Source: Owenia fusiformis (lineage: Eukaryota; Annelida; Polychaeta; Sabellida; Oweniidae). From it: DNA of 64,000 nt. The translations under genes were made by a program, and so were the position numbers. Shown here one piece after another: positions 14,501-52,520 of this stretch; the first letter of the stretch is position 1; each line of letters starts with the position of its first letter. The stretch spans positions 6,935,772-6,999,771 of the forward strand of contig CAIIXF020000002.1 of assembly GCA_903813345.2 (NCBI GenBank), written 5' to 3'. Under the pieces are notes generated by a model that had not been told where the DNA came from, made no database searches, and saw nothing but the letters and a program-made list of their open reading frames with translations.

Positions 14501-15440
14501 CTATTTAGACTGATGTGTTTACGGTTAACAATTTGAACTAGATAATGGCAACTCCGCGGATTAGCAAATCCCAACGAACAAAATATCAATTAGCGAATTC
14601 CAATCAATTATACTCATTATACTTTGGTTAAAATTGAAAAAATTAGATTTTAGAATTCCGAATTCCTGCAAAGCAGCCATTTTGAATTTTCTGAGATACA
14701 AATCTGAAAAATAATACCATAATTGTGATTTACTCCAAAATTTCTTCAATTTGAGTATAATATAGCCATACTTTGAAGGGATCGAAAAATTATTGCGAAA
14801 TCGTACATTAGATGGCCATTTTGAAATAAATAAATGTTGTGAATATACTACCAAAATTTAAACAATAATATTAATTACTTTGGTTCAGAATGAAAAATTT
14901 ATGATTTTTGCGAAAAAGCCCCGTCATTTTTAAAGCAGCAGCCATCTTGAAAAATTTTCTTTTTGCGCAAAACTATTCACCAATATACATCTTTCCATTA
15001 AATATGAAGAAAATCAGTCAACTAGTATCTTCCGGACAGACGGACGGACTGACTGACTGACTGACTGACGGACTGACTGACAGACGGACGGACAGAGGGC
15101 TTCACTATATCCCTACCGAACTTCGTTCGTTGGGATAATTATTGATCTATTCATAGTCTGGTAAATTGACTGGCTGTTTGTAGCCATTTTGAAACTCTAA
15201 ATTTCCCTGTGTTTAATGTGTCAGGGAATCAATCAAGACACATACTATATTGCACTTCACTTCATAAAATTATACTAAATGATACAATAGTATACAATAT
15301 AATGGCCGAAAATTAGAATTTCCCCTCTACATGTAAGTAGTTGAATTTATCATCACTTAAATACAATTATTTGAATTAATTTTAAACTTACCAATGTGGA
15401 CAAAACATAAAAACGTTAAAATCTTTCCAATAATATCCAT
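8442..15440 (-). CDS. LU-domain (Ly6/uPAR) secreted protein with long low-complexity tail, four exons
   Basis: Exons inferred at 15440-15392, 14433-14281, 12918-12787 and 9913-8442. All three introns have GT/AG borders and are phase 1, so the frames join without a stop. Exon 1 encodes a signal peptide (MDIIGKILTFLCFVHI). Exons 2 and 3 encode one three-finger domain (about residues 20-107) with ten cysteines, from LDCYTCSS to the diagnostic CICNTSGCN. Exon 4 encodes about 490 residues: KEHP-type repeats, a Thr/Val-rich stretch, three copies of QDDQSFI (21-bp DNA repeat near 9139-9206), then a Gln/Asn/His-rich segment. LU proteins are usually about 100-150 residues and often GPI-anchored, so this tail is exceptional. 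The link from exon 3 to exon 4 rests on phase match and strand only. Intron 3 carries nested transposons. The tail's frame ends without a hydrophobic segment; see the separate entry just downstream. Confidence 0.72.
10552..12232. mobile_element. nested element with CAG...CTG ends and 6-bp target duplication
   Basis: It starts CAGTACTGTCAACC and ends TTGACAGCTCTG. The 6-bp word AACAAG flanks both sides (10546-10551 and 12233-12238). Both outer segments are filled with variants of the phrase TTCGCGGGACATT. The middle holds a fragment resembling an OTU protease (minus). Its termini resemble the right end of the block at 29330-29608 (revcomp CAGGCCTGTCAACTGTCC) and, more loosely, those at 30784-32798. 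Superfamily not assigned. Confidence 0.75.
11280..11537 (-). pseudogene. OTU-like cysteine protease fragment inside a transposon
   Basis: The short frame carries GTIGNGNCLFEALAHQI, which resembles the catalytic D-G-N-C-L-F motif of OTU-family cysteine proteases (here N-G-N-C-L-F). About 60 residues lie before the motif and about 12 after it. The catalytic histidine region is absent, so it is a remnant. OTU domains are known cargo of several eukaryotic transposon groups, which fits its position inside the nested element. Its exact parent is unknown. Confidence 0.5.
12436..12650. repeat. degenerate tandem repeat, about 60-bp unit
   Basis: Four variants of 'acctgaccttaggcctaaggtctcatcaatg' follow each other. 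The core TTAGGCCTAA is palindromic. A run of about 15 G follows near 12666-12680. No coding role is visible. Confidence 0.55.
14545..15138. mobile_element. dispersed repeat, 'GGCAACTCC ... CGTTGGGATAA' family, full copy
   Basis: It begins TGGCAACTCC with AATCCCAACGAACA shortly after. It ends with a GACGGACTGACT-type microsatellite, then CTTCACTATATCCC and GAACTTCGTTCGTTGGGATAA. The interior from about 14680 matches the copy at 44742-45005 (CATAATTGTGAT and TATAATATAGCCATACTT in the same order). A third relative with an expanded interior lies at 59038-60126. It sits in intron 1 of the LU-domain gene. Confidence 0.65.
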
Positions 15441-20978: not shown

Positions 20979-23900
20979 TTATTCTTCTTTCTCCTTAAGA
21001 TCAATTTCAGACTTTTTCCTATTATAAAGCTCTATCAAAAACTGGTCAGGTTTAAGGTTTTTCTCGTCCAGTTCCGACCAAACTTTTTCCAATCTTGAAA
21101 TATTTCTTGCACTGTCAAGTTTCCTTCCTATAAAATACAACTCGAATTGTTCCCGAGATAATAGTTTACACTGATCCACGTCACAGAGATTTTTAGTTGT
21201 TGATTTGTCTAATTTTGGAAAGAAATTAATTCCTGTCCATATTTGGAGATCTTCGAGTGTCACTTGGTATTGTCTTAGAGTATGGTCATGTTGGATTGGT
21301 TGATTAGGAACGACAAATGCTCCAATGAGTTTTGTTTGTTTATCACCAGTTTCAGCCAGTATTATCTTGTAAAGATGGGTTGGAACTGGAACTTCATTCT
21401 TTCCTATCACCTGAAATTGAATAAATTTATGTACAGTGACACCTCTCCAAGTCTATCTTAAGGCATTACAATGCAAAATGTCACCACCTGCCATTTATTA
21501 CAATGTCCCCCAAACTCAGATTACCATCCACAAAAAGGTATGTATAGTGGAACTCCTCTTAAGTTGGAACATGTCAATGGATGAAACACCTCTGGATGTT
21601 GAACACCACTAGAAGTGGAACACTTTTTCAAACACCAACTTTTACCAGTCCAAAGACCAACTGACTTAATGTTAAATGAATATCTAATAAGTGGAACTAG
21701 TCCTAGTCTAGGTACTGTTATGATCTTGACAGTACAGTACAAGTTCTACATGTGTAACTGCTACACATGTACGAGTAACATAATAACTCAAAGGAAGTAA
21801 ACAAGATGATACCAGATGCTGGATAGTATTACAGGTACCATAAGGTGTTCCACTTTCACATGTTTACTGCATGATATAATACAATTGTAACTTGTAATAT
21901 AGATAATTACACTCTGGCAAAATTTGGCTCCATGCTACAATATAGCAAATAGAAGTAATTATGAATGCTTGCACATGCAATGTTTAAGTGTGTACTGCAA
22001 GTCTATCAGGCGGCATTGACATATAAAATGTCACAACCTGCCATTGTTACACTTGTGGTGATGACATAGATGCAATAATGTGCAATTAAAGCACTGAAAT
22101 ATTTAAATACCCTGGAATCCCAGGGGTTAGAAGTAATTACTACCATTTGAAATAGGACAAACAAGACATACATAATTCTGAAATACAATCTGAATCTTAA
22201 ATCTCATAATATAGTACATTTGATTACCTTTCTTGAATCAGTCACTTGATGCTGTATTAGTAATTCTTATCTTTCACATATCAAATATGAACAACCAACA
22301 ACAATTTTCTGGAAGGAGGTCACATTTGATCCCCTTTTCATATTTAAACATTTATGGTCAGGTTAGGGGTTCACTTTTTAAAATTTTCCAGGAGGGTTCA
22401 CATTTGACAACTTTGGCTCTAGATCACTTGAAAGGTGCTCAGAATGGTGAAAAACTTCAGAATTTTGAAAGAATTCAGGGGTTCCCCTGAACCCCCTGGA
22501 AATGGGCCTTATCCCCATATCATTTTTTCTCAATAAGTAAGAGTCATTTTTTTCTTTTCTTTTATACTTGAAGTATACTGACCTCATATTTCACAAACTT
22601 TTTTCCATTTTCTTCTATAGTTGACCTGACAATAGGGCCAGTTACCACCCACACATCAGAATAACCTTTAGTCTGAACCTACAAAAAGCGGTTTATTAAA
22701 AGTAAAGATCATATGGTTTTTATTAAAGCTGGAAACCTATACACTCCCAATCCACACTGTAAAATCACCTTATGTACGTAACTACAAATAAGGAGTATGG
22801 TACCAACTGTATTGAATGGTACTGTTGTAATATGGTGTCATATAGTGTTCATGGACATGGTACCATTTTAGTCTACATTACCATATGGTACCATATTTCA
22901 CGGTACTGTATTGCATCATTGCCAAAACAGTACCGTACGGTACTGTTGCAGATTGGCTGTGTATAGCATCATATGCACAACATTTGATGCACAATTGTTA
23001 AACAATTTAACAATTGTTAAACAATGAAAATATGCTTTACAATTTACTCCATATCCAAGAAAGTTAAATTAATTTCATGTGTCATGGTGAGGTATTTTTT
23101 TAATATATACCGGTATTTATTTCAGTCAAGAACAGCTGTAAAATCACATGTTTACCGTACTAAAGATATCAAAATAGATGAATACAATGTTGTAAAGTCA
23201 ATAATGCTTAAATTATCAAGGAAAAACAGTTATTCAAAAGCATACGGTTTAAAGGATCCCATTTATCTTCCTATGCTTAAATATATTTTGTAATAGGTTG
23301 ATACATTTAGCTTAAAATCTCTTACCAGGTCTCTTGTGTACATTTCCAGTTTGTTCCAAAACTGGCCATTATTGTTCAAATCCTGAGGTACAATGTTGGA
23401 GAGGTAGAAACTTTCATCCATAGCAACCTGGAATCAAAGTAAAATGCCTTGTATCTAAAATTTGTTAAAAGGGGATGATGTCCTATCATCAGAAGTTGTG
23501 AAAGGACAAAGTTAATTTTGATTAGGCAGAGGGGTGAATGATGACCTTCTTAGCAAAGACTGCAGATTTCTTTAATTCAAGTGAAAGACGAATCAATATT
23601 TGAAAATGAGGCCATGTGAACTCATCTGATCAAATTAATGTGGCCTCACCTGATCAAATTTATTATCTCCAGCGGGAGCCATATGGCCTCTGGACCATCC
23701 ACTCTTATAGAAGTCACTGTTTGCAGCATTGTACATCTCAGGTATGTTGACATCAGGTTTGAACTTGCTGTGTTTCCTATTGGCTGAACCTTCAAAGAAA
23801 ACATAAGTGATGGGGGTTAGGCCTGGGGGCAGGCATGGCTTTTATTAGTAGTCAATACACTATTTTTTTTTCATTCAAGTAATAAATTAATACAATTCAA

Positions 23901-26100: not shown

Positions 26101-26484
26101 CTCACATATTCAATGTGCCTAAATGGCCTAAATCCATCAAAAGCCACTGGACCCGATCTTATTCCGACTAGGGTCCTGAAGGAATGCAGTGACAGCATAT
26201 CACCATTCCTTCAAATAATTTTTCAACAGTCTATCGATGAAGGCTTAGTGCCTATGGACTGGAAACATGCCAATGTTACTGCTATCTACAAAAAGGGACG
26301 AAGAGACGAGGCTGTGAATTACAGGCCTGTATCTCTGACGTCAGTTCCATGTAAAATAATGGAACATATTATATTCCATCATGTTATGGCCCACTTTGAC
26401 CTCTATGAAATTCTAGTAAAATTCCAACATGGATTCAGGTCAAAGCACTCCTGTGAAACACAACTTCCCAGATAGCACAACGAC

Positions 26485-26805
26485 GTTGGGCCAACGTTGG
26501 GCCAACAGCATGCCAGCCAGTGGGCCAACAGTGGCTGCCAACGTTGGCCCAACGTTGGCGTGTCCAGCCAGCCAACGTTGGTCCAACGTTGGCAGCCACC
26601 AAAGAACCAACGTTGGCCCAACGTTGGCGTGTCCAGCCAGCCAACGTTGGTCCAACGTTGGCAGCCACCAAAGAACCAACGTTGGTCCATCGTTGGCCCA
26701 ATGTTGGTCCATCGTTGGCCCAACGTTGGCGTGTCCAGCCAGCCAACGTTGGTCCAACGTTGGCAGCCACCAAAGAACCAACGTTGGCCCATCGTTGGCC
26801 CACCA
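26485..26805. repeat. palindromic minisatellite, CCAACGTTGG core (left array)
   Basis: Three main units of about 69-102 bp contain GTGTCCAGCCAGCCAACG, then GGCAGCCACCAAAGAACC. They are separated by runs of CCAACGTTGGCCCAACGTTGG-type words. Because the core is self-complementary, long frames appear on both strands. They are artefacts of the repeat. Confidence 0.8.
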
Positions 26806-27198
26806 TTGACACAATTTACTTTTTTGAACAGCCATTGTTGGCTCCTTGGTATTAGCGGCAGCCCACAATGGGCCGCCCACAATGGGCCAACTGCGATCAT
26901 GCCACCCAATGGGCACCAGTAGTGACGTTGGCCCGACGTCTTTGTGATATCTGGGCATTCGATGCTCTCACTGTAAATGTGTTCACATATAATATCCGTT
27001 CTACATCAATAAAATATGGTGGCTTGTTTTTCCATACTAAATATATTTGGTAGCCTTATAAGTGGTTTCAACTGTATTACAAGGCGAAAATCCATATTTC
27101 TGAGGTAAACAACATTATCAGATAATTTTGAAAGAAAATATTTCATAAAATTTACCTTAATTTTTTTAATGACTGCTGGTATGTTTTTCATCAATTTT

Positions 27199-28262
27199 TA
27201 AGCAAAGCATTTGCACTGATTTATGGATAAGTGGCTTCCTGGTGTTAGCGGCAGCCAACGACGGTCCAACGTTGGCCCAACTACAATTTGCCAACTGCAT
27301 TTTTGCACTGATTTATCGATAGGTGGCTTCCTGGTATAAGTGGCAGCCAACGACGGGCCAACGTTGGCCCAACTACAATTTGCCAACTGCAATTTTGCAC
27401 TGATTTATCGATAGGTGGCCCCCTGGTATTAGCGGCAGCCAACGACGGGCCAACGTTGGCCCAACTACAATTTGCCAACTGCAATTTTGATCCATGGTAT
27501 TAGCGGCAGCCAACGATGGGCCAACGTTGGCCAAACTACAATTTGCCAACTGCAATTTTGATCCATGGTATTAGCGGCAGCCAACGACGGGCCAACGTTG
27601 GCCCAACTACAATTTGCCAACTGCAATTTTGATCCTGTTATTAGCGGCAGCCAACGACGGGCCAACGTTGGCCCAACTACACTGTGCCAACTGCAATTTT
27701 GATCCATGGTATTAGCGGCAGCCAACGACGGGCCAACGTTGGCCCAACTACAATTTGCCAACTGCAATTTTGATCCTGTTATTAGCGGCAGCCAACGACG
27801 GGCCAACGTTGGCCCAACTACAATTTGCCAACTGCAATTTTGATCCATGGTATTAGCGGCAGCCAACGACGGGCCAACGTTGGCCCAACTACAATTTGCC
27901 AACTGCAATTTTGATCCATGGTATTAGCGGCAGCCAACGACGGGCCAACGTTGGCCCAACTACAATTTGCCAACTGCAATTTTGATCCTGTTATTAGCGG
28001 CAGCCAACGACGGGCCAACATTGGCCCAACTACACTGTGCCAACTGCAATTTTGATCCATGGTATTAGCGGCAGCCAACGACGGGCCAACGTTGGCCCAA
28101 CTACAATTTGCCAACTGCAATTTTGATCCTGTTATTAGCGGCAGCCAACGACGGGCCAACGTTGGCCCAACTACAATTTGCCAACTGCAATTTTGATCCA
28201 TGGTATTAGCGGCAGCCAACGACGGGCCAACGTTGGCCCAACTACAATGCCATGCCAACCAA
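27199..28262. repeat. minisatellite, 70- and 92-bp units (right array)
   Basis: About 14 units contain GGCAGCCAACGACGGGCCAA, then GTTGGCCCAACTACAATTTG. The first three are the longer form with GCACTGATTTATCGATAGG; the rest carry TTTTGATCCATGGTATTAGC or a shorter variant with ATCCTGTTATTAGC. Long and short variants partly alternate, suggesting expansion of a two-unit block. Confidence 0.8.
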
Positions 28263-29329
28263 TGGCCACCAATAGCGACGTCGGCCCGACGTCTTTGTGC
28301 TATCTGGGTTGTCAATACAATAGAGAATATAGCTCGGGCCCTCGACAACAATAAACAAACAGACATGTTGGTATTAGACTTTTCCAAAGCGTTTGACACG
28401 GTGGCTCACGAACGCCTCTTGCTCAAACTCGACTATTATGGAATTCGCAATAATAACTTGAACTGGTTCAGATCCTGGCTTGTGGGAAGATCACAACAGG
28501 TAGTGCTCGATGGTGAATCAAGTTCAAAAACTCCAGTAAAATCAGGAGTTCCTCAAGGAACAGTTCTTGGACCACTCTGTTTCCTTGTTTATATCAATGA
28601 TATGGGCAATAACCTAGCTATCATCCTCAGCCAGTCTTAAGCTTTTTGCCGACGACAGCCTTTTATTCATGACAGTCGAAAGCAAGCAAGATGCATTAAC
28701 ACTCATGAGAATCTTGATAAACTGGTCTCCTGGGCATCAACATGGCAAATGAAATTCCATCCATCAAAATGCTATGTGCTAAATATTCACAAAGGTAAAT
28801 CCCCTATCATGCACAATTACACCATGCTAGGGGAAAACCTTAAGTCGGTAACACACATCCCATACCTTAGAATTGACATCACAAATAACTTACGCTGGAC
28901 TATGTCAATAACTGCAATTAAATAGGTGTGTTTTTAATATAGATCTATGTTTTAATGTAAAGGGTCCCCAGTGCACAGCAACAAGCCTGCACTACTGGTA
29001 AAGAGGGGTGATGTCAACGCGGTAGCCTGACAGTCTCCCCAGGTAAAATGGATCTATTTTTAAATGTTAAGGTTTTAAATTATATTCTATTCAAATTCTA
29101 TCACTGTTAAATTATATATCTGCTTTATATGGGCTTATTAGCCTTTTGCAGATTATTGACATAGACATAGACATAGGATTAGAAACCGGAAGTGCTATTT
29201 TCTTAAATACATAAAATCACGGACGTCAAGTACGTTTCTGGCAAAAGCCGGAGCATAGATTATTTAGAGGACTGGAAACAAGAATGACTTACCTTTTTAT
29301 TTCCCGAATCTCGCCTGAAATTAGCTCAT

Positions 29330-29608: not shown

Positions 29609-30477
29609 ATATGTATTAACAGTGTAGAACCTTCAGAGGAATGTAGATCCTGACAGTCTATCAAACAAAATTATTGATTTGGATTTGTAGTCTTGAACTT
29701 TGAGAAACTTAGATAGCACAGTATGTGACCTAGTTTGATGACCTTTGACCTTGAAAATTTTACTTATTCAGAGCTGACAGTAGTTCTTTAGTGATTAAGG
29801 TGACCAAAATTTACATCCAAAAAATCAAATTGAAAATCAACTTTTTTGACCTTTCGGGAAGGTCACTGAAGGTCGAGTAAAGGTCAAATCTCAAAACGTA
29901 AGTTCAACTTGTAGATAATTTACAAAACAAAATTCGGTTAAATTGAAGCAAGTTGAAAAATAACTTATTTTTACTGGTTGTTGACGTCAAATATATAAAA
30001 AATGTTATTTGATGCTGACATATATTGAGCAATATGTAGGGAATGCTTAAATCTAGTCATGATGTAATTCATTTCAAGAAATGATCAAGTATAAGGACAA
30101 ACTTTGAGAAACTTGGCAATAACCAAACCTGCCATTGACTTTATACATGAGAAAGTTCCCTGAAAATGACGAAGTCCCATTTTTTGTCAAATTCTGATCA
30201 ATGACTGGCTGTGACATCATATCCTATATAATTCGGTAAGTAGAAGGTTTCTATGTACAGCTAAAATAGGAAATATTGGAGTTTCGATTAGTTCAGGAGT
30301 AAAATATGGAAAAGCACTTACAACACATTTTCTGTCAACATGAACATAATAATCAGTTTCCTTAGTGGAATTTTTTTTCTCTTTAGTTTTCTTGTCAAAA
30401 TAACTCCACTTCCCCTTATGATGAATGACAATGTCATTAGGGGGTTTTGCGTCGACAACATATTCGATATATCGATT
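29609..30477. other. non-coding region with clustered AGGTCA half-sites
   Basis: A direct repeat TGACCTTTGACCT lies at 29739-29751. A run of AAGGTCA, AAGGTCG and AAGGTCA words lies at about 29859-29886. These match nuclear-receptor half-sites, but similar words are common in repeat DNA. Otherwise nothing is recognised. Confidence 0.3.
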
Positions 30478-30783
30478 TTACATGATAAACAAGATGCCCT
30501 CTCCTCTCTTACCTCCTTTTTTGATAATCTTTAATTTGTTATTATTGTGATATGGTTGAGTAAATTGAGCCGAAAACGTAGGATTTATGTCCTCCAATGG
30601 AGGGCACCTTACCACCTCTTTGTTGTGTCTCACTCTGTTTTCAGACTTTTTTCCTGTCTGTTTAGTTTTGCTGGTAGTGAGGCCTGTGAGCCCCTTGTTT
30701 GACCCTGCTTGGCTTTGGAGCCACATTATATGACGGTCGAGTACACCAATTTTATGAGCAACTGCAATACTGTGAGAGCATAT

Positions 30784-32798
30784 CATACCTGCCAACCTAA
30801 GACCAAAATTTTGCGGTAGATTTTTTTGAAATTGCTGTATTTTTGCTGTTTTTTTTAAAAATACTGTAGTTTTCAGAGGTTTGGGGTATATTTTTGAAAA
30901 AAGTGTAATTTTGCGGTAGAAATTTGAAAAAAGCGGTAGTTTTGCGGAAGATTTAGAAAAAATGCGGTAGTTTTACGGTAGTTTTTTGAAAAAAACGGTA
31001 GTTTTGTGAAAGATTCTGGAAAAAGGTAGATTTACGGTAGATTTCGAAAAAATGCGGTAGTTTTATCGTAGTTTTTTGAAAAACCGGTAGTTTTGCGGAA
31101 AATTCTGAAAAAATGCGGTAGTTTTACGGTAGATTTTGAAAATTGCGGTAGTTTTTACGGTAATTTTTTGAAAAACCGGTACTTTTGCGGAAGAATTTGA
31201 AAAAATGCGGTAGTTTTACGGTAGATTTTGAAAATTGCAGTAGTTTTTTACAGTAATTTTTTGAAAAACTTGTACTTTTGCGGAAGATTTGCCAAAATGC
31301 GGTATTTTTCGGTAGATTTTGGAAAATGCGGTAGTTAAACCTTTATACAATGCGGTTTTCTATATTAATACAATGTTTACGTGGTCATATTGTTGTAACA
31401 GTTGTTATTGTGAATACATATTTTACTGCAAGAGTGCTTTTGATAATTACAGTTTGTAAAGCAGAACTACCACCTGAGAATATTACGAAACTATTTTTTT
31501 CAAGAAATAATAGATATGGTATTTTCAAGAATAAATAGAGACTAAACACTTTTTATTCTTCATTTACCATGCCTACAATGGACTGACAGCAACTTTGGAT
31601 TTTAATGTTTCAGCAAAATGTACAACAAATGCAAAACTCTTTTACAACTCTTTTACAATAAATCTAGATTGATTCAAAATACGAGCACAATATTCATATC
31701 TCCACTTTTATTCACCTTCTAACCAGTTTTTTAGATATCAGGATGTTTGGAAATACCATGAATGAAACATTTACTGAAATACAAAATATGGATTTTACAC
31801 GTTTTTACTCACCATCTCAGAGGATCTATCACTTTAACGAATTGAAATGACAGACATAATGTTCATATTTCATTGGAATCATATGGTATTAAATATTGAT
31901 TAGTTCACTCGCAATATAATGATATCAATGTGTTTGTCTGACACAAATAGAAAATAAGTACAGATAAATAGTCTTTCAAAAATAATCTGTTATGAGCATT
32001 TGCTGAAACTTTTCCCTTGAGACATCGTTTTGATTCGGATATCACAATACCTTTTTAATAAACCAAAACTCAATGCTTTATATTATGTGTATGTTACTGA
32101 GATAATGTGTTCTGATGAAAAATACAACATTTTATCGTACTGTAAACAAATTGATTAAACTATGTATAATGTATATGTGGCGTTCATTACTGATCATAAC
32201 AAATCAAACTACGCATATTTCATACGCTAAAACAAGTAGTTTTTGTCATTTCCGCTCTTAAATCATATTTTTGTTGCATTCGGAGTAAAGATCTGTGTAC
32301 AAAAGGGTTTGGTTAACTACAAAAACATGGCAGAAAGAATTCTTTCTAGCTAGTGGTAGTTGGTGTTTGGACTGATTACACGCAAGCTTACTAAGATAAA
32401 TGCGCAATAACCTGATAACCACAGACCTGCCGATACCTATTTATATTCGGGTTGGTGAAGGAATATTACAGGGACAGTACAGGAAGACTTCAATTTTTCA
32501 GCATTTCCCAACAATAACGGGAAATTTTACGGTAGTTTGAACAAAAATACTGTTGATTTTAGCAGAAATACGGTAGATTTCCGAAAATTTACGGTAGATT
32601 TTACGGCCGTTCTCATGGAATAAACGAGTTTTTTAAAAAGAAAATTTACGGTAGATTACGAAAAAATACGGTAGATTATTTTACGGGCGTTTTTACGGGG
32701 AAAAAATGTATTTTTTTACGGTAGTTTGTCATTTTTTTACGGAAAAACGAAAAATTTACGGTAAATTCCCGTAAAAATACGGTAGGTTGGCAGGTATG
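30784..32798. mobile_element. CATACCTGCCAACC...GGTTGGCAGGTATG element inserted in the SWIM finger
   Basis: The perfect terminal inverted repeat CATACCTGCCAACCTA borders a 2015-bp insertion. It is flanked by GCATAT (30778-30783) and GCATTT (32799-32804), a 6-bp duplication with one mismatch. Removing it plus one duplicate restores the SWIM codons in frame. The left 550 bp and right 300 bp are filled with variants of TGCGGTAGTTTTACGGTAG, in the same orientation on both sides. The middle (about 31350-32480) is AT-rich with no recognisable gene. Confidence 0.85.
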
Positions 32799-32872
32799 GC
32801 ATTTGGAGCCTCCTAAATATGCTTTACATTGGCATGATACATGGTCATCATAAGCTTGACATGTTGTTCCAT

Positions 32873-34347
32873 CCCAATTGAAAAATAAAACTAATTACCA
32901 ACTTATTACCAACTAATTTACAACTAATTATCAACAATTCTGCTGGCAATTGGAATTAAAGTTAAGCGTTAATTAAATCAATGATAATTATGGCCTAATT
33001 ATCAGTAGCAAGTTCAACGTAAATTAACTTACAATAATGCTGATTTATGATTTTTAGTTGATAATTAAGATATGAAATGTTTGAGGGTGATAGTAAGTGG
33101 TAAATTAAAACTTTTTTGTTCTGAAGTAGATAATTGGTTGATAGTTAACATAAAGGATGATTATAATGATAATTAGTCGTAAATTAGGCCCATGATTTAG
33201 AAATACAATCCCCCTAAATTTAATTTCAAGATGGTGGAAAAAGAAAACATGTGAGAGATATTTCTCTCATAAAATTGAGAATTACAACGTGAATGGTGCG
33301 TATACTACCATGAAATTTGGTCAACATTATTATAAGGGTATGTACAATGTATGTTAAATCTTATTCATACTTCTGTCTGAAATGTTTATGAATTTAAAAA
33401 TCTTTTTGAATCAGATCATATAATATTAATCCTAGAATGCAATTTAGGTACTAACATGGGTTACCTATATTTCACAAGTAATCCAAATGTGCTCTTCTAA
33501 ATAATGATTGTTAGATCAAAGACATTTCAAAACATATTTTTGATTATATCTGTTACGTCCTTATTATGTAACATTATAGTCTAATGTTTGTGTTCTGATT
33601 TTAGTTGTTGATGGCAATAATGATGTTTTCACATGCTTTTCATGAATCTTAAAAATTTGCAAAATAGAATAGCTTTAAAAAAGAGGTGGAGAAACCCCAG
33701 GGTTCAAAGATGACATACGCTTATAATGTAAATCTGTTTTGAGATGACATCGTCGCTGATTGGTTTAGGGAGTCGATCTTTGATTGGTTTAAAACTAGGT
33801 CAATTTGAAAACTTTGAAAACCAAGATGGAGGGTACGTTTTCGACAAAAGGAGGTGTGCGAAGGAGGAAATCATATGTCATCAATTGAATCATAGGGTTT
33901 TCCCTCCTCTTGCTGTGAAATTTCAAAAGTTCAAGTTCAATGTTGTCTGTTCTGAAAGATCCTAATTTAGATGAATATTCCGTCACAAAATAGTTCAAGA
34001 TGAAGCATAAATCTCCGAGTGAAGAGAAGCAAAAAAGAAGCGAGTCATTTTTGAGATGTCACAAATCTGACTTAAACCTAACTTTCAACTAATTATCAAT
34101 AGTAAGTTAGGTGATAATTAGAGATTAACTTACATCAAACTTACAACTAACTTTCAACTAATTTACGTAAATAGCTCATTTGCATATTGATGTTAGTTAA
34201 TCGTTAATTAAGTTGCAAATTAAGCGTTAATTAAGTTGATAATTAGCTCATTTGCATGTGAATTTTTACACCTAACTTTCAACTAATTATCAATAGTAAG
34301 TTAGGTGATAATTGGAGATGATTTTCCATAGGCTTTTTTCAATTGGG
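32873..34347. mobile_element. CCCAATTGAAAAA...TTTTTTCAATTGGG element, AT duplication
   Basis: The inverted ends CCCAATTGAAAAA are flanked by AT on both sides (32871-32872 and 34348-34349). Excision with one AT restores ...STDGTT... of the host frame. The outer parts repeat AACTAATTATCAAC and GTTAATTAAGTTGATAATTAG words. The middle (about 33190-34050) is unrelated; the 73-residue frame at 33744 is not recognised. End type and duplication length match the 26467-28308 element, so the two probably belong to one superfamily. Confidence 0.8.
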
Positions 34348-34400
34348 ATCTGTTGAAGTTTTGCTATGTACTATATATTTTCTTTGTCTGGGAAATTTGA

Positions 34401-34876
34401 CTATGTCTTCATTAATTTGGCGCTACTTAATTTGGCGATTTTGCCATTTTTGGCATATTGGCGGCTATTTAATTTGGCGGATATGCAAAAAAGTTAAACT
34501 TACGCGCTGTTTGCGAATTACCATGTAAATGAGCATGTTTGGCTATGGCTATGTTCATTTTTCTTTTGAGGACCACTGGCGATATTCATCATGTTTCTGA
34601 GATCATCCTTTACATTTTGCACCTCGATCGATGCTGCTACTATTAATAGTATTAATGAGTGACTGACCAGTTCTGAGCCAATTTATGAGAGACATTTTTT
34701 CATATTTTTGGAAAAAAATAAACCGGAAGTGACCTAAAAACACTGGACGAAATGCCCTAGATAATTCCCGGGGATTCATTCTAAGTTTTGGCGAAGATTT
34801 ATATTCATTGGCGAATTTTTCAATTTCGCCAAATTCGCCAAATTAAAGCGGGCGTCAAATTAACCCAATCTACAGT
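34401..34876. mobile_element. TTAATTTGGCG phrase element, 6-bp duplication
   Basis: ATTTGA flanks both sides (34395-34400 and 34877-34882). Removing the insertion plus one copy joins ...GRVASFK-FPRQRKY... in frame. The left third repeats TTAATTTGGCG and variants. The right third repeats the complementary CGCCAAATTAA. The two termini are only weakly similar (CTATGTCTTCATTAATTT against ACTGTAGATTGGGTTAATTT). Confidence 0.75.
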
Positions 34877-35800
34877 ATTTGAAAGAAGCAACTCTGCCTT
34901 TCCTATGGTTGCGTTTGCTAATAGATGTGACATTCCATAACTCACTTAACTGCCTTTCAATCCACATGGTAGTAGATTAACAGCAGTATTTACCTCTTCA
35001 ACATCCTGTATATCAATAGAGGTAATTCTTCTTGCAGTTTTTAAGTTTAGTTGCATAAATTTGTTTATGTATTTAATTTGGTAACTTTCTCCTTTTTCAT
35101 GCCATTTTGCAAGGTCAATTCCCAGGTGTTCAAAAGGTTCTGTCAGAGAGAAGTCACCTGTTCCGGAAATGGCCCATTTGACCATAAATTTATGATATTT
35201 TTCGATGACATTCAAAACATTTTGAGTATACTCTATATATGAGTACTTGCCACTCTTGGGTAACTCTGCTTTTAATCTAGAGTTAAAACCTTCAATACCA
35301 TTAGTGTTGAATCCCGCTTCAGCTCGAGCTGATTTTATAATATGTTCAGCTAGTTTTCTCCTGCGGCTAGGAACCGGTTTATTATTTTTTCACAGTCTTG
35401 TTCACTGATTGGAATATTGAGAAGCTCTTCTTGTAAGAGTCCAAGTTTAACTTGAATGTCATCGTCATCAATGGAGTCTATAACACCATTCTTCTTGAAA
35501 GCTAAGGATAATACTGTTTTTCTATGCTCTGGGTTTAATAATGTTTTCTGTAGATAAAGTTTGAAATTTCTTCTAAAATGATTAACACAAAGAAGAACTT
35601 TTGAATATGGCTTCCACGGATTATAAATTGCACTTTCCTCGTCTACTATGGTCGTTAGTTTTATTTCAGCTATAACGACGAGGTGAGTGGCCGTCAGGGA
35701 TCGTTGACGCAATTCTCGCCAGCTTGAGTCGACCTTGTAGTGCTTTTTGGTGGTGGTTACGGTGCTTATATGGCCAGCATTTGATGATAGAATCAGTTAT

Positions 35801-36487
35801 TTGTTCTACTAAAATGTTCACGAGTCCCGTCCATCTTGACCATGTTGACCTGAGTGACCCAGATTAGATACGCATGCGCAATTATCAGAAGTTTTAGGGA
35901 CTGATCATTTTTATGTAGGGAAAAGAAATAAGGTAAACAGCGGGTAAACAGCTAAATAGCGTGTCATTTGGAGTCCAATTTACGCAAGAACACGGGGGAA
36001 CCCGGAATAAAACTATACGTAACCATGTATTAACTAGAAAAACGGGACTGAAATAAAAAATCAAAGGTCGAAGGGTTTTTTCATAATCCCGTTTCATAAA
36101 ATCCATTGTAAAAAGTTTTTGACACCCAGTACTCGAAGGGGCGTAGGGGCGAAGGGTTTTTAATACATTCCATCTCATCTGCCTCAATTTTAAAGTTTTG
36201 GTATTTTTAATATGATTTCACTGTTTTTGTGGACTGGTACGATTAAGCCAAGCAAATGGCAGCTGACCTGTTCAAAGTACTTTTAGTACTAATTGTCGCA
36301 AATGACAATAAAACCTGATTCACAATGTTACCGATTTACGTATAAATCGGCGACATTGTTCAAAGCGGGATGGAAATGATAAGAACCACGTTTTAGATTC
36401 TATAGTTTACATGATTTGGTTTATATGGTCGGTGAAAAAACGTACATTTTATATTGTAAGATTCTTAATGTTAAGCATCAAAACTCT
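35801..36487. other. mostly unassigned; contains a small hairpin
   Basis: At 36322-36360, ACAATGTTACCGATTTA pairs with TAAATCGGCGACATTGT around CGTA. The rest shows no gene. Two 'gggttttt(c)ata' blocks near 36075-36165 hint at an eroded phrase repeat. Confidence 0.4.
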
Positions 36488-36940
36488 GCATCAAAATATT
36501 GTTTTTCAGAGATCTACCGCTGAACTACTGTTTTTTCAAAAGTATACCGCAAAAACTCCCGTTTTTTTCAAAAATCTCCCACAAAAACTAAAAGTCTCCC
36601 GCAAAACTCCCAATGTTTCAAAAATCTCACGCAAAAACTACAGTTTGTTCAAAAATCTACGGCAAAACTACAATTTTTTTTATAAAATTTACCGCAAAAA
36701 TATATTTTTTAAAATACCTTCCCCAAAAACTACCGTTTTATTTCAAATCTACCGTAAAAACTCCCGTTCTTTCTAAATCTGCCCAAAAACTCCCGATTTT
36801 CAAATCTTCCGTAAAAACTACAATTTTTTCAAAAATTTCCCGCAAAAACTACCACATTTTTTAAAAAACTCCCTCAAAACTACCGAATTTTGGAACTCCC
36901 GTAAAAGTACAGCAATTTTTTTTAAATCTCCCGCCAACAC
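36488..36940 (-). repeat. phrase-iterating block (GCGGTAGTTTTT / GGGAGTTTTT type)
   Basis: Read on the minus strand it repeats TTTGCGGTAGTTTTTGAAA and GGGAGTTTTTGCGG variants about 15 times. That links it to 30784-32798 and to the block at 56228-56530. No terminal inverted repeat or duplication was found. Frames across it (36411-36864) are artefacts. Confidence 0.65.
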
Positions 36941-42226: not shown

Positions 42227-42239
42227 TCTTGCTGATGTT

Positions 42240-44711
42240 CTGACTCATGTTGTTGTAGAACCTGATGGTGTTCTGACTCCTGTTGTTGTAGAATCTGGGA
42301 ATATTCTGACGCATGTTGTTGTAGAACCTGGGGATGCATTGCTCTGACTCATGTTGTAGAACCTGATGATGTTCTGACTCAGGTTGTTGTAGAACCTGAT
42401 GATGTTCTGACGCATGTTGTTGTCGAACCTGGGGATGCATTGCTCTGACTCATGTTGTAGAACCTGGGGATGTTCTGACTCATGTTGTAACCTGGGGATG
42501 TTCTGACTCATGTTGTTGTAGAACCTGATGATGTTCTGACTCATGTTGTTGTAGAACCTGATGATGTTTTGACTCCTGTTGTTGTAGACACTGATGATGT
42601 TCTGACTCATGTTGTTGTAAAACCTGATGATGTTCTGACTCATGTTGTTGTAGAACCTGATGATGTTCTGACTCATGTTGTTGTAGAACCTGATGGTGTT
42701 CTGACTCCTGTTGTTGTAGAATCTGGGAATATTCTGACGCATGTTGTTGTAGAACCTGGGGATGCATTGCTCTGACTCATGTTGTAGAACCTGATGATGT
42801 TCTGACTCAGGTTGTTGTAGAACCTGATGATGTTCTGACGCATGTTGTTGTAGAACCTGGGGATGCATTGCTCTGACTCATTTGTAGAACCTGGGGATGT
42901 TCTGACTCATGTTGTAACCTGGGGATGTTCTGACTCATGTTGTTGTAGAACCTGGTGATGGATATTCTGACTCATGTTGTTGTAGAACCTGATGATGTTC
43001 TGACTCATGTTGTTGTAGAACCTGGTGATGGATATTCTGACTCATGTTGTTGTAAAACCTGATGATGTTCTGACTCATGTTGTTGTAGAACCTGATGATG
43101 TTCTGACTCATGTTGTTGTAGAACCTGATGGTGTTCTGACTCCTGTTGTTGTAGAATCTGGGAATATTCTGACGCATGTTGTTGTAGAACCTGGGGATGC
43201 ATTGCTCTGACTCATGTTGTAGAACCTGATGATGTTCTGACTCAGGTTGTTGTAGAACCTGATGATGTTCTGACGCATGTTGTTGTAGAACCTGGGGATG
43301 CATTGCTCTGACTCATGTTGTAGAACCTGGGGATGTTCTGACTCATGTTGTAACCTGGGGATGTTCTGACTCATGTTGTTGTAGAACCTGGTGATGGATA
43401 TTCTGACTCATGTTGTTGTAGAACCTGATGATGTTCTGACTCATGTTGTTGTAGAACCTGGTGATGGATATTCTGACTCATGTTGTTGTAAAACCTGATG
43501 ATGTTCTGACTCATGTTGTTGTAGAACCTGATGATGTTCTGACTCATGTTGTTGTAGAACCTGATGGTGTTCTGACTCCTGTTGTTGTAGAATCTGGGAA
43601 TATTCTGACGCATGTTGTTGTAGAACCTGGGGATGCATTGCTCTGACTCATGTTGTAGAACCTGATGATGTTCTGACTCAGGTTGTTGTAGAACCTGATG
43701 ATGTTCTGACGCATGTTGTTGTAGAACCTGGGGATGCATTGCTCTGACTCATGTTGTAGAACCTGGGGATGTTCTGACTCATGTTGTAACCTGGGGATGT
43801 TCTGACTCATGTTGTTGTAGAACCTGGTGATGGATATTCTGACTCATGTTGTTGTAGAACCTGATGATGTTCTGACTCATGTTGTTGTAGAACCTGATGA
43901 TGTTTTGACTCCTGTTGTTGTAGACACTGATGATGTTCTGACTCATGTTGTTGTAAAACCTGATGATGTTCTGACTCATGTTGTTGTAAAACCTGATGAT
44001 GTTCTGACTCATGTTGTTGTAGAACCTGATGATGTTCTGACTCATGTTGTTGTAGAACCTGATGATGTTCTGACTCATGTTGTTGTAGAACCTGATGATG
44101 TTTTGACTCCTGTTGTTGTAGACACTGATGATGTTCTGACTCCTGTTGTTGTAGACCCTGATGATATTCTGACTCATGTTGTTGTAGAACCTGATGATGT
44201 TCTGACTCATGTTGTTGTAGAACCTGATGATGTTTTGACTCCTGTTGTTGTAGACACTGATGATGTTCTGACTCCTGTTGTTGTAGACCCTGATGATGTT
44301 CTGACTCCTGTTGTTGTAGACACTGATGATGTTCTGACTCATGTTGTTGTAGAACCTGATGATGTTTTGACTCCTGTTGTTGTAGAACCTGATGATGTTT
44401 TGACTCCTGTTGTTGTAGAACCTGATGATGTTCTGACGCATGTTGTTGTAGAACCTGATGATGTTTTTACTCATGTTGTTGTAGAACCTTGGGATGTTCT
44501 GACTCATGTTGTTGTAGAACCTGGTGATGGATGTTCTGAATCAGGTTGTTGTAGAACCTGGGGATGTTCTGACTCATGTTGTTGTAGAACCTGATGATGT
44601 TCTGACTCATGTTGTAGCACCTCGGGATGTTCTGAATCATGTTGTTGTAGAACCTGGGGATGTTCTGACTCATGTTGTAGAACCTGGGGATGTTCTGACT
44701 CATGTTGTAGA
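42240..44711. repeat. 33-bp minisatellite with 436-bp higher-order repeat
   Basis: About 75 units of GTTCTGACTCATGTTG followed by TTGTAGAACCTGATGAT. Sub-variants (CTCCTG, GACACTGATGAT, GGGGATGCATTG) are arranged in blocks. A block at about 42935-43370 is repeated 436 bp later with identical translated frames, so it is a recent duplication. Because the unit is a multiple of three and nearly stop-free, 11-residue repeats are open on the plus strand (VLTHVVVEPDD) and in two minus frames (NNMSQNIIRFY, QQHESEHHQVL). Confidence 0.9.
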
Positions 44712-45005: not shown

Positions 45006-48000
45006 GTTTAATGGTGATAAATATGATCTTAAACAATGCTGAATGACTTAGTTTTTAACATTTGTTTCGATTAACATTTTTGGCTCACCCTGTGCCTCAA
45101 TTGTTTCTTATTTCAAGTCATATAAAGAGTTAGTTTAAAAATTGCATAAATTGTTGGACTCTGAGACATGTCTTCAGTGTTTAATTGTTTTTCCTCAAAA
45201 TCAGTGTTCAAATGCTCACTTAATAAGCATCATTTCCCAACTTTTTGGAATAAAGATACTCATTCTCACCTGATCTATGCGGTTACCATACTGTGACAAC
45301 TCCAGGAGACAGCTCTCTAATGTGCCCTTGGTATCTGCGAGTCGTTTTGTCAAAGTTTCATAATCGTAGTGAAGGTTTTGCCGGATGGTGTCTGGACCCA
45401 ATACCAAGAAATTTGTCAGAGTTTTCTCTCCCGTGTCTGCATGGGATGAAGCAGGCTCTGGCCATCCTCTATTTGTACAGGAATATCCTTTTTGGAGAAA
45501 TTATACTTTCATTTACATACAGTCACTTTGTTTGCTTGAAGTAATGCTTTTAGCTTTAATAATCTGAGCAATTACGCCTGATAATTTTAGATGAGTTGCA
45601 TTTTTCATTCTCCGTAACTTGTAATATTTTGAATGTAAAATATGTTAGAGAAATACATTTGCACTGTATTACTACGAGAGGGTTTTTAATAGTAAATAAG
45701 AAGACCTTCACTCGTGCTAGTTGAGTTTGCATTGTGCTTTCATCTCTTGAAGTATCCATACAAATGAGAGAGAAATGTAACTTTGGATAATCTCTACAAT
45801 TTCTTTTGAGACATCTGTTTATAAGGGTTGAGGGTTCAAGTATGTGGGAATACAATTTTGATGGAACACCCTGTGTATAATTTCGGCTTCATTCTGTAAA
45901 ATATCCCAAAATTTACCTTGAGTAATTGAGCTTGTGTGGTGTGCCTATCCCCCTCCAGGTTATTCAATGGTTTCTCCATCTATTCATTCTGTTGCATTTT
46001 TCCAGTGCCTCCTGGTATATGTGGTTTGACAATACATTGTCACATTCCCTTAATAAATCCTAAAAGAGAGATCAGATCAAAGAAATGAGATCAAATGGAT
46101 ATCCATTTGCAAGAACAAACACCCTGATTTACATATACTTTTGTACACGATACATGTAGATTGCAGGGTCAATTAGTCCCCATGACAACTGATTTCCAAG
46201 ACAACTGGTTGCTAAGAACCAACTCATCCCAAAGTCAATTGATCCCCAAGACAACTCATCCATTAGACAATAGACTAGGTGCGAGTAGAAATAATCTTGA
46301 TTTACGTCATTAAAAATTCAAACTTCAGTCAAACTGATGTCATATTTCGAATCTACATGTAAAATTACATCTAGAAATGTGGCTTTGATAAGAGTTTATC
46401 AACTTTGAAAATTTAATTTTCTTTGAAAATGTGACTTCTAGGTCGGGGAGATTCCCCATAGACCCCATGTTGTAAAATCACAAAAAGTGAAATATCTTTT
46501 CTTGTGTTGGGCAGATAACATTTTCCTTTACTGGACATATTTTAATTTGAATAACTATCAGATACATAAGGGTAATATGAAAAGTGAACCACTAAAACTG
46601 ATGAATATTCAAGTTTAAGGGAAATTTGTAATACCCTGCCATGTTATTTCCCCCGACTCAGCGGCCTGGTGGCGAAACTGGTAACTACCTACTCACATCT
46701 GAGTAATTGATCCTATAGCCAACTCATCCTCAATGTTGGAAGTTTATTTTTGTACCAGTAGTATTAAAATTACCCAATGTAACAGTGCATCATATAAAGT
46801 ATCTCTAGATCATACCTCCACTTTGTCGAGAAGCATGTGGTATCTCTCAACAACAAGATTCTTCTCTAAGGTAAAATGAGGGTCACCACTCTGTGTCTGC
46901 AACTCTGAGAATGTCTCCCTCCTTCTGTCTACCAAACTTTTCTCACTCATTAGTGTCAGCTTCAAAGTCTAAAGATATATGCGAAATTGTAAGTCCTTCA
47001 GGGGTTCCATTCAAAAAATTACTTGTGTTCTGTGAAAACATGATTCATAAAATTTTAGATTTGCATATTGATAAAGCTAAAGTAGCTTCCATAATTCAAA
47101 TGGTAATATGACTCTAAAATGCTATTCTTAACTATCAAATAAGCCCTGCCCCCCCCCCTCTACAGCCAAAATCAAAATAGATGGAATCAAGTTTGATATA
47201 TCAATGGAAAGATCGACCAAACTTACATAATTATCATATATCTGATTCCTATAAATCAATGTCACAAATTGCTACATTGAATCAATTGAAGTGACTATAA
47301 AACTAGAAACAATGCAATTTGCTGTATTTTCAGGATTTCAATTATCAGGCACCAGATAAGGCATTTTTATCAAGTTGGTGCAAAATTCTCATTTTCACAA
47401 TTCAGACCAAAACTGGTAAAACTATGCCCATTTTTCATTATTTTTCTCATTTTTAAGTGGATGCAAATGAATTTTTAGGAAGATGAAATTAAGCCGGTTT
47501 TACAATTCTCAGGTGGGTGCTGTGCCTTCTTGCTTTAATGCTGAGCAGATAACTGTATGCATTGCATATGGCAGTGACTTGAACAAATTTGTGGATAATG
47601 TCAGTGAGATGTGTATAAAATATGAGACTTTGTGATTTAATGTCACTTTGGGTGATTTAGCTCTAAGCTTATGATTTTCTTCTTCGTTGTAGGACAGTAA
47701 GTTCTGAAATGAATACATAACAAAATGTTTGGAAATTAAATATTAAAATCATTCATTGAGATAAAGATTCAGACTTTCATTGGACATACCTGGACATTCT
47801 GTAATTTAGCATGCACAGCTGATCAGTCCCCCTGTGTGAATGTATTGCTATTAAGTTTGGCCTCTAGGTCATCTAGGCTCTGTTGCAAAGCCTTGTTTAG
47901 TCTTCCATAGCCCTCATGTTCACTCACAGCCTTTTCCTGTTTCCTACACTGTTTCTTACAGCTACTAACTGGTAGTGAATGGTACCTACAGATGGAACAA

Positions 48001-48242
48001 TTAAGTGTTACTCATTGTGTTTGAGGAATGACATGTTTTTATGATGACTAAGACCCAGTTGCATGTAGTTTTGTGAAGGTTTGATGCTAGTTGTCTTTAA
48101 ATGCACTCCATATTCATCAAAAAAGTGAGAAAATAAAACAAGAATAATGTTGGGCCTGCCCACCTGTACACTATTGCAATTTTACACTCTTTATATCCAA
48201 AATATTACTAATTCACTTTTTTTGTCATATGCATAACACACG

Positions 48243-48682
48243 GGTGATCCGCTCGATTACGCTGGTTACAGAAACAGTTCATTTGGGTAACAAAATGTTG
48301 GAACGTCGAAGGTATGATTTTTCTTTTTTCCTTATTTCAAACCTTGTAGGCAGAATCACCACGACATTTTTTCAGTATCATATGTTTTATAAAAGGTACA
48401 TGTTTGCGAAAAAATAGATCAGAAGACAATAGAATCGTCGATTTAATTCCTCACTTAAGTTACAGAAATGATATGGGTTAAAAGTGCAGATCTTAACTGT
48501 TTTTTGAAATATTGTTTCTGTAATTTAAGTGAGGAATTAAATCGACGATTCTGTTGTCTTCTTTCTTAAACATATGATTGTGATATACATTGTGATAAAA
48601 TGTTGTGGGAATTCTGCCTACAATATAGAAATAAGGAAAAAAGAAAAATTGTACCTTTGACGTTCCGAGTGGATCACCAGTG
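48243..48682. repeat. large foldback element, about 200-bp arms
   Basis: The left arm (GGTGATCCGCTCG, AACGTCGAAGGTA, TTTTTCTTTTTTCCTTATTT, AATCGTCGATTTAATTCC) is mirrored by the right arm (GGAATTAAATCGACGATTCT, AAATAAGGAAAAAAGAAAAA, ACGTTCCGAGTGGATCACC) around a loop of roughly 50 bp. It lies in an intron of the spectrin-like pseudogene and has no coding content. Confidence 0.7.
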
Positions 48683-48999
48683 ATAACAGATCTTTGTAAA
48701 ATACCTGGCAATTATCTTTGAGGCAAGGTTGGCTCCTCTGGTGTTAGATGTGCTTGCTGATAGTAGCTCTACCCATTCTCACGTATAGAGTCAAGCCCTG
48801 ATCCATACACTATCATCTCTCTTGATGCAGTCTGGAAATAAAACATTATACATCTTGTTTGGACCTCTAATGAAAAATAATTGATCCTGATTGAACAACA
48901 AGTGTTTAAAAGCTTTGGTAAAGACTGGTTAAGTGTTTCAGGATGATGTCATAACATGTCATCATGGCAACAAATCAGAGGGAAATTGAACAGAATTTA

Positions 49000-50790
49000 A
49001 TGACATGAATGTTCAAATTACTTGTTGGCATTATTGATGCTTCTAAATTGTACAAAGCTCAATTTTGGGATTATTTTGACAAAACTTATATTCTCACAAA
49101 AATAATGTCATTGCTGGTTTATTAAAGTAAAACTCATATAAAATACAATCAAAATTGAACAGAGGAGGATTGAATGGATAGGGGAGTTATATGTCTAAAC
49201 ATAAACCTAAACCAGAAAACTGTGCTCATTGTGAAAATGCCATTGCTCATTGTGAAAGTGAAGCTGCTTTTGTTCTGATATTTCTTACATCAAATGGCAG
49301 CTATCTTGTTTTTCCCCCTTCAAATTAAAATGGCGGAAAATTCAAAAAAATTGAAAAAGAATTAAATCCTTACATATATTTAAAACAAAAAGATTTTCTT
49401 TTTAATTCTTCATGGTCTTTAAGTTATTTCTATTTTATATACCATACAGGTTGCCATTGGTGTTTTTTCTATGATAATTATTGATTGTTTTCTGTTACTT
49501 ATTTTGACTCTCAGCAGGGGGTTTATTTTGCATTAATACTCATGAAATAGTAAATATACCTATCACATACATTTAACTGAGGGACCAAAAGGGCATATAT
49601 CTAGACTCATCCTTTACACAAATTTGTGAGTTGATAAATAAACTCAGTAACACTTGATAACCCTCCCCCCCCGCTTGAAAAATAATGCTGGGGAGATCAC
49701 TGAATGCCTTAGAGTATATTTGCATCTCCAATGAATAATTAATCTCAGTAAAAAGTACCCTGTGCTTTAACAAAACATTGTGGGGAGGTATGTATGTGGA
49801 GTAGGGGGAGGGGCTCATAAGGGCTTGTAGCTGTGTTTTCAATATAAATTGAAATATAGATGGCAGCATGGGTGTTGGTAGGTCCAGAATACATGTAAAT
49901 GTATTACAAGAGTCACTTAATTTCTTGATTTCCATTTGGATCAACTTAAAACACCATTAAGTGATCTCCTCAGCATTTTTTCTCAGGTGGGTGCAAAAAC
50001 TCTCATTTTTACAAATTAGACAAAAATTTGTGGAAATATGCCAATGATTTTTTTCATTTTTAGGTGGGTGCAGACTGATTTTCAGGTGGGTGCAAGCATA
50101 TTTTCAAAATCTCAGGTGGTTGCTGCGCCCATCTTGCTTTATGCTGGGGAGATCACTGCCAGTTGAATCTAATCATATGAACCTATTGACATATGGATTG
50201 TCATTTATTATTAAAATTGTGACACTTATAAGAGTAAATGAATTTTTAATCTTTAAAGGTTTTTCAACATTGTGTAAATGGGGATTTAGCTTGAGCTTTT
50301 TCAGAAGACTTAAAAATCTTTAGAATTTGAGTAAAAGTAAATGAAGCTAGCTCTATTGATAGAAAACAACATATAGAATTCAAATATGCCATTAAAAAGA
50401 AGAAACTGTTGGTCTTTAATTAATGGTTACAAATGCAGATCAATTAAAAACATGACTTAAAAAAACATGACTTTATGGAAACCATCTGATTAATAAAAAA
50501 AAATCAACATCACATTTACAGCTTCCTCAATTTTTTTAGTTTCAAAAGATGTACTGAATAGTGTTAGGTTGCCAGGCTGAGAACATCTTCCCAAGAATCT
50601 ATGCAACCTTATGCAGTCATCATTTCCACATCATCATTGCACACAGAATATCTTTCTAACAATACATTCAAAAGATAGGGAGACGCATTAAGGACTAAGG
50701 CACACCCAAAGAGTACATTAAATCAATAGAATTAAGGTTGTGATTAATAAGAATCATTGCTTATGAAAACTCTTGGAAATGTAGGAAAAT
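49000..50790. other. no supportable exon
   Basis: Intronic or intergenic. Variants of 'ctcaggtgggtgcaaaa' occur near 47508, 49984, 50064 and 50114, an eroded phrase repeat. Nothing else is recognised. Confidence 0.4.
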
Positions 50791-51399: not shown

Positions 51400-52520
51400 A
51401 GCCCATTTCAGTTTTATTTCGTCAGTAGAACCCCAAAAATATGAAATCAGGAGACCATTGTGCAATAATATTTGGAAAAGTATATTCATATTGTACATGA
51501 ATGACATTTGTATATTTCAGATTATTTAGTTCTGTTTTGTGCAATAAGCCTGTGCCCTCTTATAATGAATTTCAGCCATGTTACAAAGTATCTTTTTGAA
51601 AATACTATGGCAGAGAAGCATACATGCTATCTATTGCAAGACTTATGCCTGGCACAACCGTCACCAGGTTATTAAGTGTTTTTAAGTTTCGCAAGGATCT
51701 TGCCATGGCCGTGGTAGTGTTATCGCGAAAGCCTGGTATAATCGTGACAATGCTATACTATATTGCAAGGCTTGTCACGACCGTGGTAATGTTAAAGCAC
51801 GATATGACTGTGACATGAAGCATTGTAAATTTCATAGAATGATTAACTACCTTAAATATGTGAATCTAGACTTCTATACATGAACATGGTACTCACGTAC
51901 ATTGAAACGTGAACTTTTAGATTCATTTAGAGTCCATTTCACTGTTTCATTGCGTCAGTAGAACGGCAAAAATAAGAAATTGGGAGACTATTTTGCAATA
52001 ATATATGGAAAAGTATATTCATAATGTACACGAATGACATTTGTATATTTCAGATTTTTTAGTTTTTTGTGCAATAAGCCTGTGCCGTCTTGTAATTTGA
52101 AGAATTTCAGCCATGTTAATCATGGCAGAGAAACATCCAAATATAAGAGGCCACACACTTTATAAGCCAAACTAGAAGCAATCCAAGATATACAAATGTC
52201 ATTCATGTACATTATGAATATAATTTTCCATATATTATTGCACAATAGTCTCCCAATTTCTTATTTTTGCCGTTCTACTGACGAACTGAAGCAGTGAAAT
52301 GGACTCTAGTCTTCTTAGTTTTTTGTGCAGTAAGCCTGTGTCCTCTTTTAATTTAAGAATTTGTAAGCGATGTTATCTTTTTGCAGGTTAAACAAATGTC
52401 ATTTATGTACAATAGGAATATATTTTTCAATTATTATTGCAAAATGATCTTTTGATTTTACGCAATAAAACACTGAAATGGGCGATAATAGAGAGATCTG
52501 CTCACTATTACGGGAAATTC
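51400..52520. repeat. four related inverted and direct copies of an AT-rich repeat
   Basis: The word order GTCAGTAGAAC, GCAATAATATATGGAAAAGT, GTACATGAATGACATTTGTA occurs forward at about 51418-51520 and 51950-52058. It is inverted at about 52190-52313 and, more diverged, at 52388-52490. A fragment recurs at 57925-57985. The forward/inverted pair at 51938-52313 could be one palindromic element. Confidence 0.6.

Follow-up and report, generated by a model that had tools for sequence, protein, structure and literature searches.

How did a coding frame on the minus strand of contig CAIIXF020000002.1 come to be broken at three nearby points, and how far can the broken frame itself reveal where the intruding sequences begin and end? 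The window, i.e., the whole stretch of 64,000 nucleotides that was analysed, contains a transposase-like frame that spans the minus strand from position 35640 to about 30241 and is interrupted by three stretches with inverted termini, here designated E1 (34416–34859), E2 (32873–34347), and E3 (30784–32798). The best explanation, to which we assign a probability of roughly 85%, is that a cut-and-paste transposase gene, probably of the MULE type, took up three non-autonomous DNA transposons that are unrelated to one another and is now a pseudogene. What can be read directly from the DNA is the interrupted frame, together with the termini and their adjoining duplications. An earlier note on this DNA had described three insertions into a minus-strand transposase frame; the frame bias, the termini, and the in-frame joins bear out this core of its account, and its details hold in part.

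The host remnant consists of five pieces, all on the minus strand. Piece 1 (35353–35640) has 0, 6, and 10 stops in its three frames over 35640–35356 and carries a CxxH motif (CVNH), and piece 2 (34864–35389), which contains NTNGIEGFNSRLK, has 1, 15, and 18 stops. They are followed by piece 3 (34350–34411; EDIVKFPRQRKYIVHSKTST; 2, 0, and 2 stops), piece 4 (32799–32870; 0, 1, and 3 stops) with the first half of a putative SWIM finger, CQCKAYLGGSKC, and piece 5 (30241–30777; 1, 8, and 16 stops), which comprises SHSIAVAHKIGV, the second half of the putative finger, and then the C-terminal part. The short pieces 3 and 4 are each open in one frame only. Outside the inserts, the host shows a frameshift within 35353–35389, which provides the only link between pieces 1 and 2, and two in-frame stops (TAA at 34946–34948 and at 30478–30480). 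The second of these had been taken as the end of the gene, but the same frame goes on to about 30241.

A random cut restores a reading frame in about one case in three, and frame restoration cannot fix a border by itself. The proposal that the frame determines both the borders and the lengths of the duplications is not supported: each element has at least one other set of borders that also leaves a frame open. The alternatives are ATTTGA or TTAA at E1, AT or, 12 nt away, an inner AATT at E2, and GCATWT or an inner TA (likewise at a distance of 12 nt) at E3. An interrupted dead frame can serve as a test of insertion borders, but here the frame by itself was compatible with an alternative at every site. 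The choice depended on further evidence from terminal repeats, from a protein profile, or from sister elements, and it shifted the ends of E1 inward by 15 and 17 nt relative to the 34401–34876 given before. The biology of the locus is of a known kind, an ordinary layering of mobile elements within dead mobile elements.

The non-autonomous element E2 (1475 bp) has a perfect 13-bp terminal inverted repeat (TIR), CCCAATTGAAAAA, and subterminal repeats of the ACTAATTATCA type. It is flanked by one copy of AT at its left end (32871–32872) and one at its right end (34348–34349) and reads CC|AT|CCCA...TGGG|AT|CT in context; the perfect inverted repeat at this site, ATCCCAATTGAAAAA, measures 13–15 bp, with an outer AT that is readable as a duplication. 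Joining the flanks opens KTSTD/GTTC in frame, exactly as had been predicted. The sole open frame of 34411–34350 crosses this join with one AT kept and not with both removed, so that the frame supports a duplication of 2 bp. The placement of E2 at 32873–34347 with a 2-bp AT duplication probably stands.

A competing reading of these borders places the insertion of E2 in an AATT inside a host palindrome, ATCCCAATTGGGAT, so that the host reads KTSTDPNWDGTTC and the element begins with TGAAAAA or GAAAAA. This removes 12 nt less than the outer borders, leaves the same open frame, and keeps the match to SWIM nearly unchanged (20.2 bits). It would also fit the AT duplication within an A|AT|T target that the section of PMC4482050 on ISL2EU (PHIS group) gives for these elements, whereas with the outer borders E2 shares only the 2-bp AT duplication with ISL2EU and lies within CC|AT|CT. 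According to the same section of PMC4482050, however, the TIRs of ISL2EU usually start with GG, which agrees neither with the inner reading nor with the CCCA start of the outer one. The inner AATT moreover requires a chance host palindrome of 5 + 5 bp around the site, and other elements in the window have a CCCA start and a 2-bp AT or TT on each side, among them an insert in a reverse transcriptase gene whose TT duplication cannot be read as a palindrome. We consider the inner insertion site unlikely and favour the outer borders of E2 because of these other CCCA...TGGG elements.

The window contains four elements that combine CCCA termini with an exact 2-bp duplication and a TIR of 10 bp or more, whereas 200 dinucleotide shuffles yielded 0.075 on average and never more than 1; because the motif was chosen after E2 and the element at 26467–28308 had been seen, only those at 14570–15134 and 59069–60121 are independent of this choice. 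A fifth appears when the TIR is relaxed to 9 bp. The element at 26467–28308 (CCCA...TGGG) has a perfect 14-bp TIR, a TT duplication, and internal tandem repeats, and it splits a reverse transcriptase remnant, presumably of the LINE type, into halves that match positions 3–53 (E 0.00036; sub-threshold at 20.7 bits, the cut-off being 29.6) and 57–141 (E 1.6e-14) of RVT_1. Those at 14570–15134, 59069–60121, and 45905–49069 have CCCA...TGGG ends and AT duplications, and the first two share the TIR CCCAWCGAAC. It is conceivable, if rather improbable, that E2 and the elements at 26467–28308, 14570–15134, 59069–60121, and perhaps 45905–49069 form one mobilisation group served by an undescribed transposase outside ISL2EU and the other 2-bp groups compared.

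The borders of E1 probably need revision. This non-autonomous element of 444 bp lies between two copies of TTAA (34412–34415 on the left, 34860–34863 on the right) and has the termini TTTGGCGC and TTTGACGC (TTAATTTGRCGC with the TTAA counted) and inner TTAATTTGGCG repeats. In the resulting layout, TTAA/TTTGGCGC...GCGTCAAA/TTAA, the 8-bp inner ends match with one mismatch. If one TTAA is kept, the long host frame is rejoined as KAELLLSNTVDWVN/EDIVKFPRQRKYIVHSK, i.e., KAELLLSNTVDWVN-EDIVKFPRQRKYIVHSKTST, and the first join reads LLLSNTVDWVNEDIVKFPRQ rather than the RVASFK-FPRQ obtained with the earlier borders. Among the six TTAA pairs in the end regions of E1, this outermost one alone leaves a frame open over 34945–34350, a test stretch that starts directly after the stop at 34946–34948. 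Since TTAA is palindromic, a TA duplication with the ends ATTTGRCGC is an equal reading with the same empty site. The earlier borders are probably misplaced, and the TTAA pair is the better set.

The model that this replaces assigns to E1 the interval 34401–34876, a 6-bp duplication ATTTGA (TCAAAT on the minus strand), and the host reading RVASFK-FPRQ. The duplication is exact (6/6), and no other exact repeat of 6–9 nt was found to be shared by the two end regions of 61 nt each. In this window, however, at least one common 6-mer turned up in 3164 of 5000 random draws of paired 60-nt stretches separated by 430 nt. The first eight bases inside the ends of this model are mismatched throughout (8/8), and the TTAA pair, whose ends do match, is bounded by outer edges that lie 11 and 13 nt further in than the ATTTGA borders. 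The proposed join is open in a frame of its own, which comprises 38 codons (34976–34863) and forces the host to leave its long frame just upstream. Codon statistics are neutral on this point. An ATTTGA duplication at E1 is very unlikely.

The third element, E3 (2015 bp), is likewise non-autonomous and has a perfect 16-bp TIR, CATACCTGCCAACCTA, with the termini CATACC...GGTATG and a subterminal TTTTGCGGTAG minisatellite. Its target-site copies, GCATAT at the left end (30778–30783) and GCATTT at the right end (32799–32804), agree in five of six positions. The joined flanks read CQCKAYLGGSKCSHSIAVAHKIGV, and GGSKC/SHSIAVA is open and in frame, as anticipated; the borders proposed for E3 stand, with the duplication read as GCATWT. 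The join gives a borderline match to the Pfam SWIM domain, with E 0.00099 (19.0 bits) or E 0.00034 (20.5 bits), depending on the copy of the duplication that is kept, and hence on either side of the cut-off of 19.6 bits. For the flanking pieces alone, SWIM is not listed even with an E limit of 10, although the filters of HMMER hide most matches above E ~0.1. With the inner TA as border, which differs by 12 nt and is likewise in frame, the SWIM match is lost, and EpCAM_N and LRRNT appear at chance level in its place. The duplications of 6, 2, and 6 bp that had been claimed for the three elements thus fare differently: TTAA is preferred at E1, the 2 bp at E2 are probably correct, and the copies at E3 match in 5/6.

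Outside the host gene, on its 5′ side, a diverged copy of the E3 minisatellite lies in reverse orientation at 36500–36940. The terminal 15-mer of E3 was not found in this interval within three mismatches.

All three inserts look like non-autonomous DNA transposons, and they are left unclassified because each departs in at least one defining terminus from the superfamily that its duplication suggests. Like Kolobok and piggyBac elements, E1 is framed by TTAA and has inner termini that match each other; the TTAA agrees with Kolobok, although TA is equally symmetric. However, the Kolobok entry in PMC9587614 gives the termini as 5′-RR...YY-3′ and the piggyBac entry in PMC10045372 as CC...GG, whereas E1 starts with TTTGG inside the TTAA (with AT if TA is the duplication). 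The 6-bp duplication of E3 is shared with IS3EU, but the termini listed for the latter in the corresponding entry of PMC10045372 are TA...TA, as opposed to CA...TG in E3. It also falls within the 5–8 bp that PMC4482050 reports for hAT elements, a comparison of duplication length alone.

Each insert was presumably mobilised in trans by the transposase of another autonomous element, in what were probably separate events, and each has its own type of duplication, TTAA (4 bp, or TA as 2 bp) at E1, AT (2 bp) at E2, and GCATWT (6 bp) at E3. The three insertions may have come after the death of the host gene or as part of it. Their mutual order, which the earlier note considered fixed, does not follow from the sequence since the elements lie side by side and none is nested in another.

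The term “landing pad”, which had been applied to the gene, implies a true hot spot, in which the SWIM-coding part attracts differing transposons. The three sites indeed fall within 138 of the 1452 nt of host sequence (P ~0.026 under uniform insertion), but this value is uncorrected, post hoc, and based on n = 3, and is too weak to carry the claim. In addition, the targets TTAA, AT, and GCATWT have only their A+T-richness in common, and the same window contains another element within a retroelement gene, which makes a hot spot highly improbable. That the flanks rejoin in frame because the locus is a working split gene, with introns or regulatory DNA in place of the elements, is scarcely credible in view of the stops and the frameshift outside the three stretches and the transposon-type termini and target duplications that the latter bear.

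The host itself is probably a MULE-type transposase with a C-terminal SWIM zinc finger, a membership that its sequence motifs suggest rather than establish. A CxxH motif, CVNH, was seen by eye upstream of NTNGIEGFN, and NTNGIEGFNSRLK in piece 2 is a candidate motif of the catalytic E. The account of MULE motifs in PMC9587614 places a C/DxxH between the second D and the last E, and PMC6446971, also in its Table 1, records a SWIM finger for many MULE groups, if not for all. The host would resemble the MULEs with a SWIM domain in the borderline CxC...CxH finger of its C-terminal part after the joins and in the CxxH that precedes the candidate E. While MULEs generate target duplications of 8–11 bp, the host element is known here from a gene remnant without located ends.

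The 5′ part of the host gene appears to have been lost in the region 35640–35870. The sequence beyond 35640 recalls what we take to be the tail of a SINE, without support from tRNA or Rfam matches: no tRNA that would point to a SINE or tRNA-like cause of the loss was detected by ARAGORN across the window, and a search of 35550–36100 against Rfam at E up to 1 returned only one sub-threshold snoRNA match. A structure predicted for 34949–35389 with AlphaFold2 without an alignment had a mean pLDDT of 47.6 and was not used for any conclusion. The remaining Pfam lines are at chance level, i.e., ToxS (0.1) and DUF2239 (0.17) among the host pieces and SwaI-like (0.06) for a peptide that spans the joins at E1 and E2.

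Several observations weigh against the interpretation of the locus as a MULE-type pseudogene with three inserts, beginning with the identity of the host. The Pfam MULE domain was not matched at E up to 1 by the three whole frames or at E up to 10 by the pieces, and the region where the first catalytic D would be expected is missing. The label “MULE-like” in the earlier note, which the borderline SWIM match and the CxxH favour and the absence of a Pfam MULE match does not, is plausible but unproven. Moreover, the rows of Table 1 of PMC6446971 for MULE-Cg and MULE-Mollusca, both restricted to molluscs, show no zinc finger, in contrast to the putative SWIM finger of the host, a difference that tells against the assignment if the host is from a mollusc.

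The joins are open to similar objections. The SWIM score at the E3 join is borderline, and a control that reads from the host into E3 (32679–32870) matched the unrelated EGF_laminin domain with E 0.00026 (21.5 bits; cut-off 21). Since this match equals that of SWIM in strength, the SWIM result should not be leaned on hard. Of 3721 shifted joins at E3, 523 also show a loose C.C...C.H pattern because CSH adjoins the site. At E1, TTAA pairs 300–600 bp apart with 8-bp ends that differ by at most one mismatch are rare, not unique: the window contains seven, four of which are combinations within E1 and three of which lie elsewhere. The codon statistics are neutral between the long frame and that of the earlier note, with position scores of 0.25 and −1.80 and codon scores of 0.82 and 1.37, respectively. 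Neither model of E1 works without an additional lesion immediately upstream, which is a stop with TTAA and a frameshift with ATTTGA.

Finally, none of the three inserts was seen in another copy with two ends, the only similar sequence being the diverged E3-like repeat at about 36500–36940, and no homologue that could check any of the joins was found in the sequence collections searched. These collections are viral or prokaryotic and were not aimed at animal genomes, so that misses say little. Four queries with the host protein against viral contigs gave 12, 11, 7, and 2 pattern stretches, and two against genome contigs gave 66 and 33; tblastn confirmed none of them as a relative. A blastn search of 34864–35640 against phages gave no match. 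The DNA patterns of E1 and E3 were absent from the viral contigs, and that of E2 occurred in five, to which the elements and two host pieces gave short, weak blastn matches that were taken as chance, the best having E 0.25 (E2) and E 0.011 (host piece). Among the titles listed by literature searches with the terminal sequences, none concerned these elements, which does not imply their absence from print; Repbase lay outside the search. A further search on elements with 2-bp target-site duplications in molluscs found no publication.

The window contains further repeats outside the host gene. Inverted repeats without a clear duplication occur at 10081–12433, where a 20-bp repeat, CATACGAGGCCCGATCAGAA, has its outer ends about 2.35 kb apart, and at 60817–61227, where those of GTATGGGACCCCC are 411 bp apart. 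Several overlapping inverted repeats, one of them of 25 bp, are packed into about 1 kb at 51402–52482. The minus strand carries a fragment of an EXOG-type nuclease gene at 20985–21452 (Pfam Exog_C, E 5.7e-13; Endonuclease_NS, E 1.8e-11); along with the reverse transcriptase remnant, it suggests that the DNA is eukaryotic and probably from an animal. A 2.5-kb array at 42233–44708 repeats a 33-bp unit about 75 times and has long open frames on both strands.

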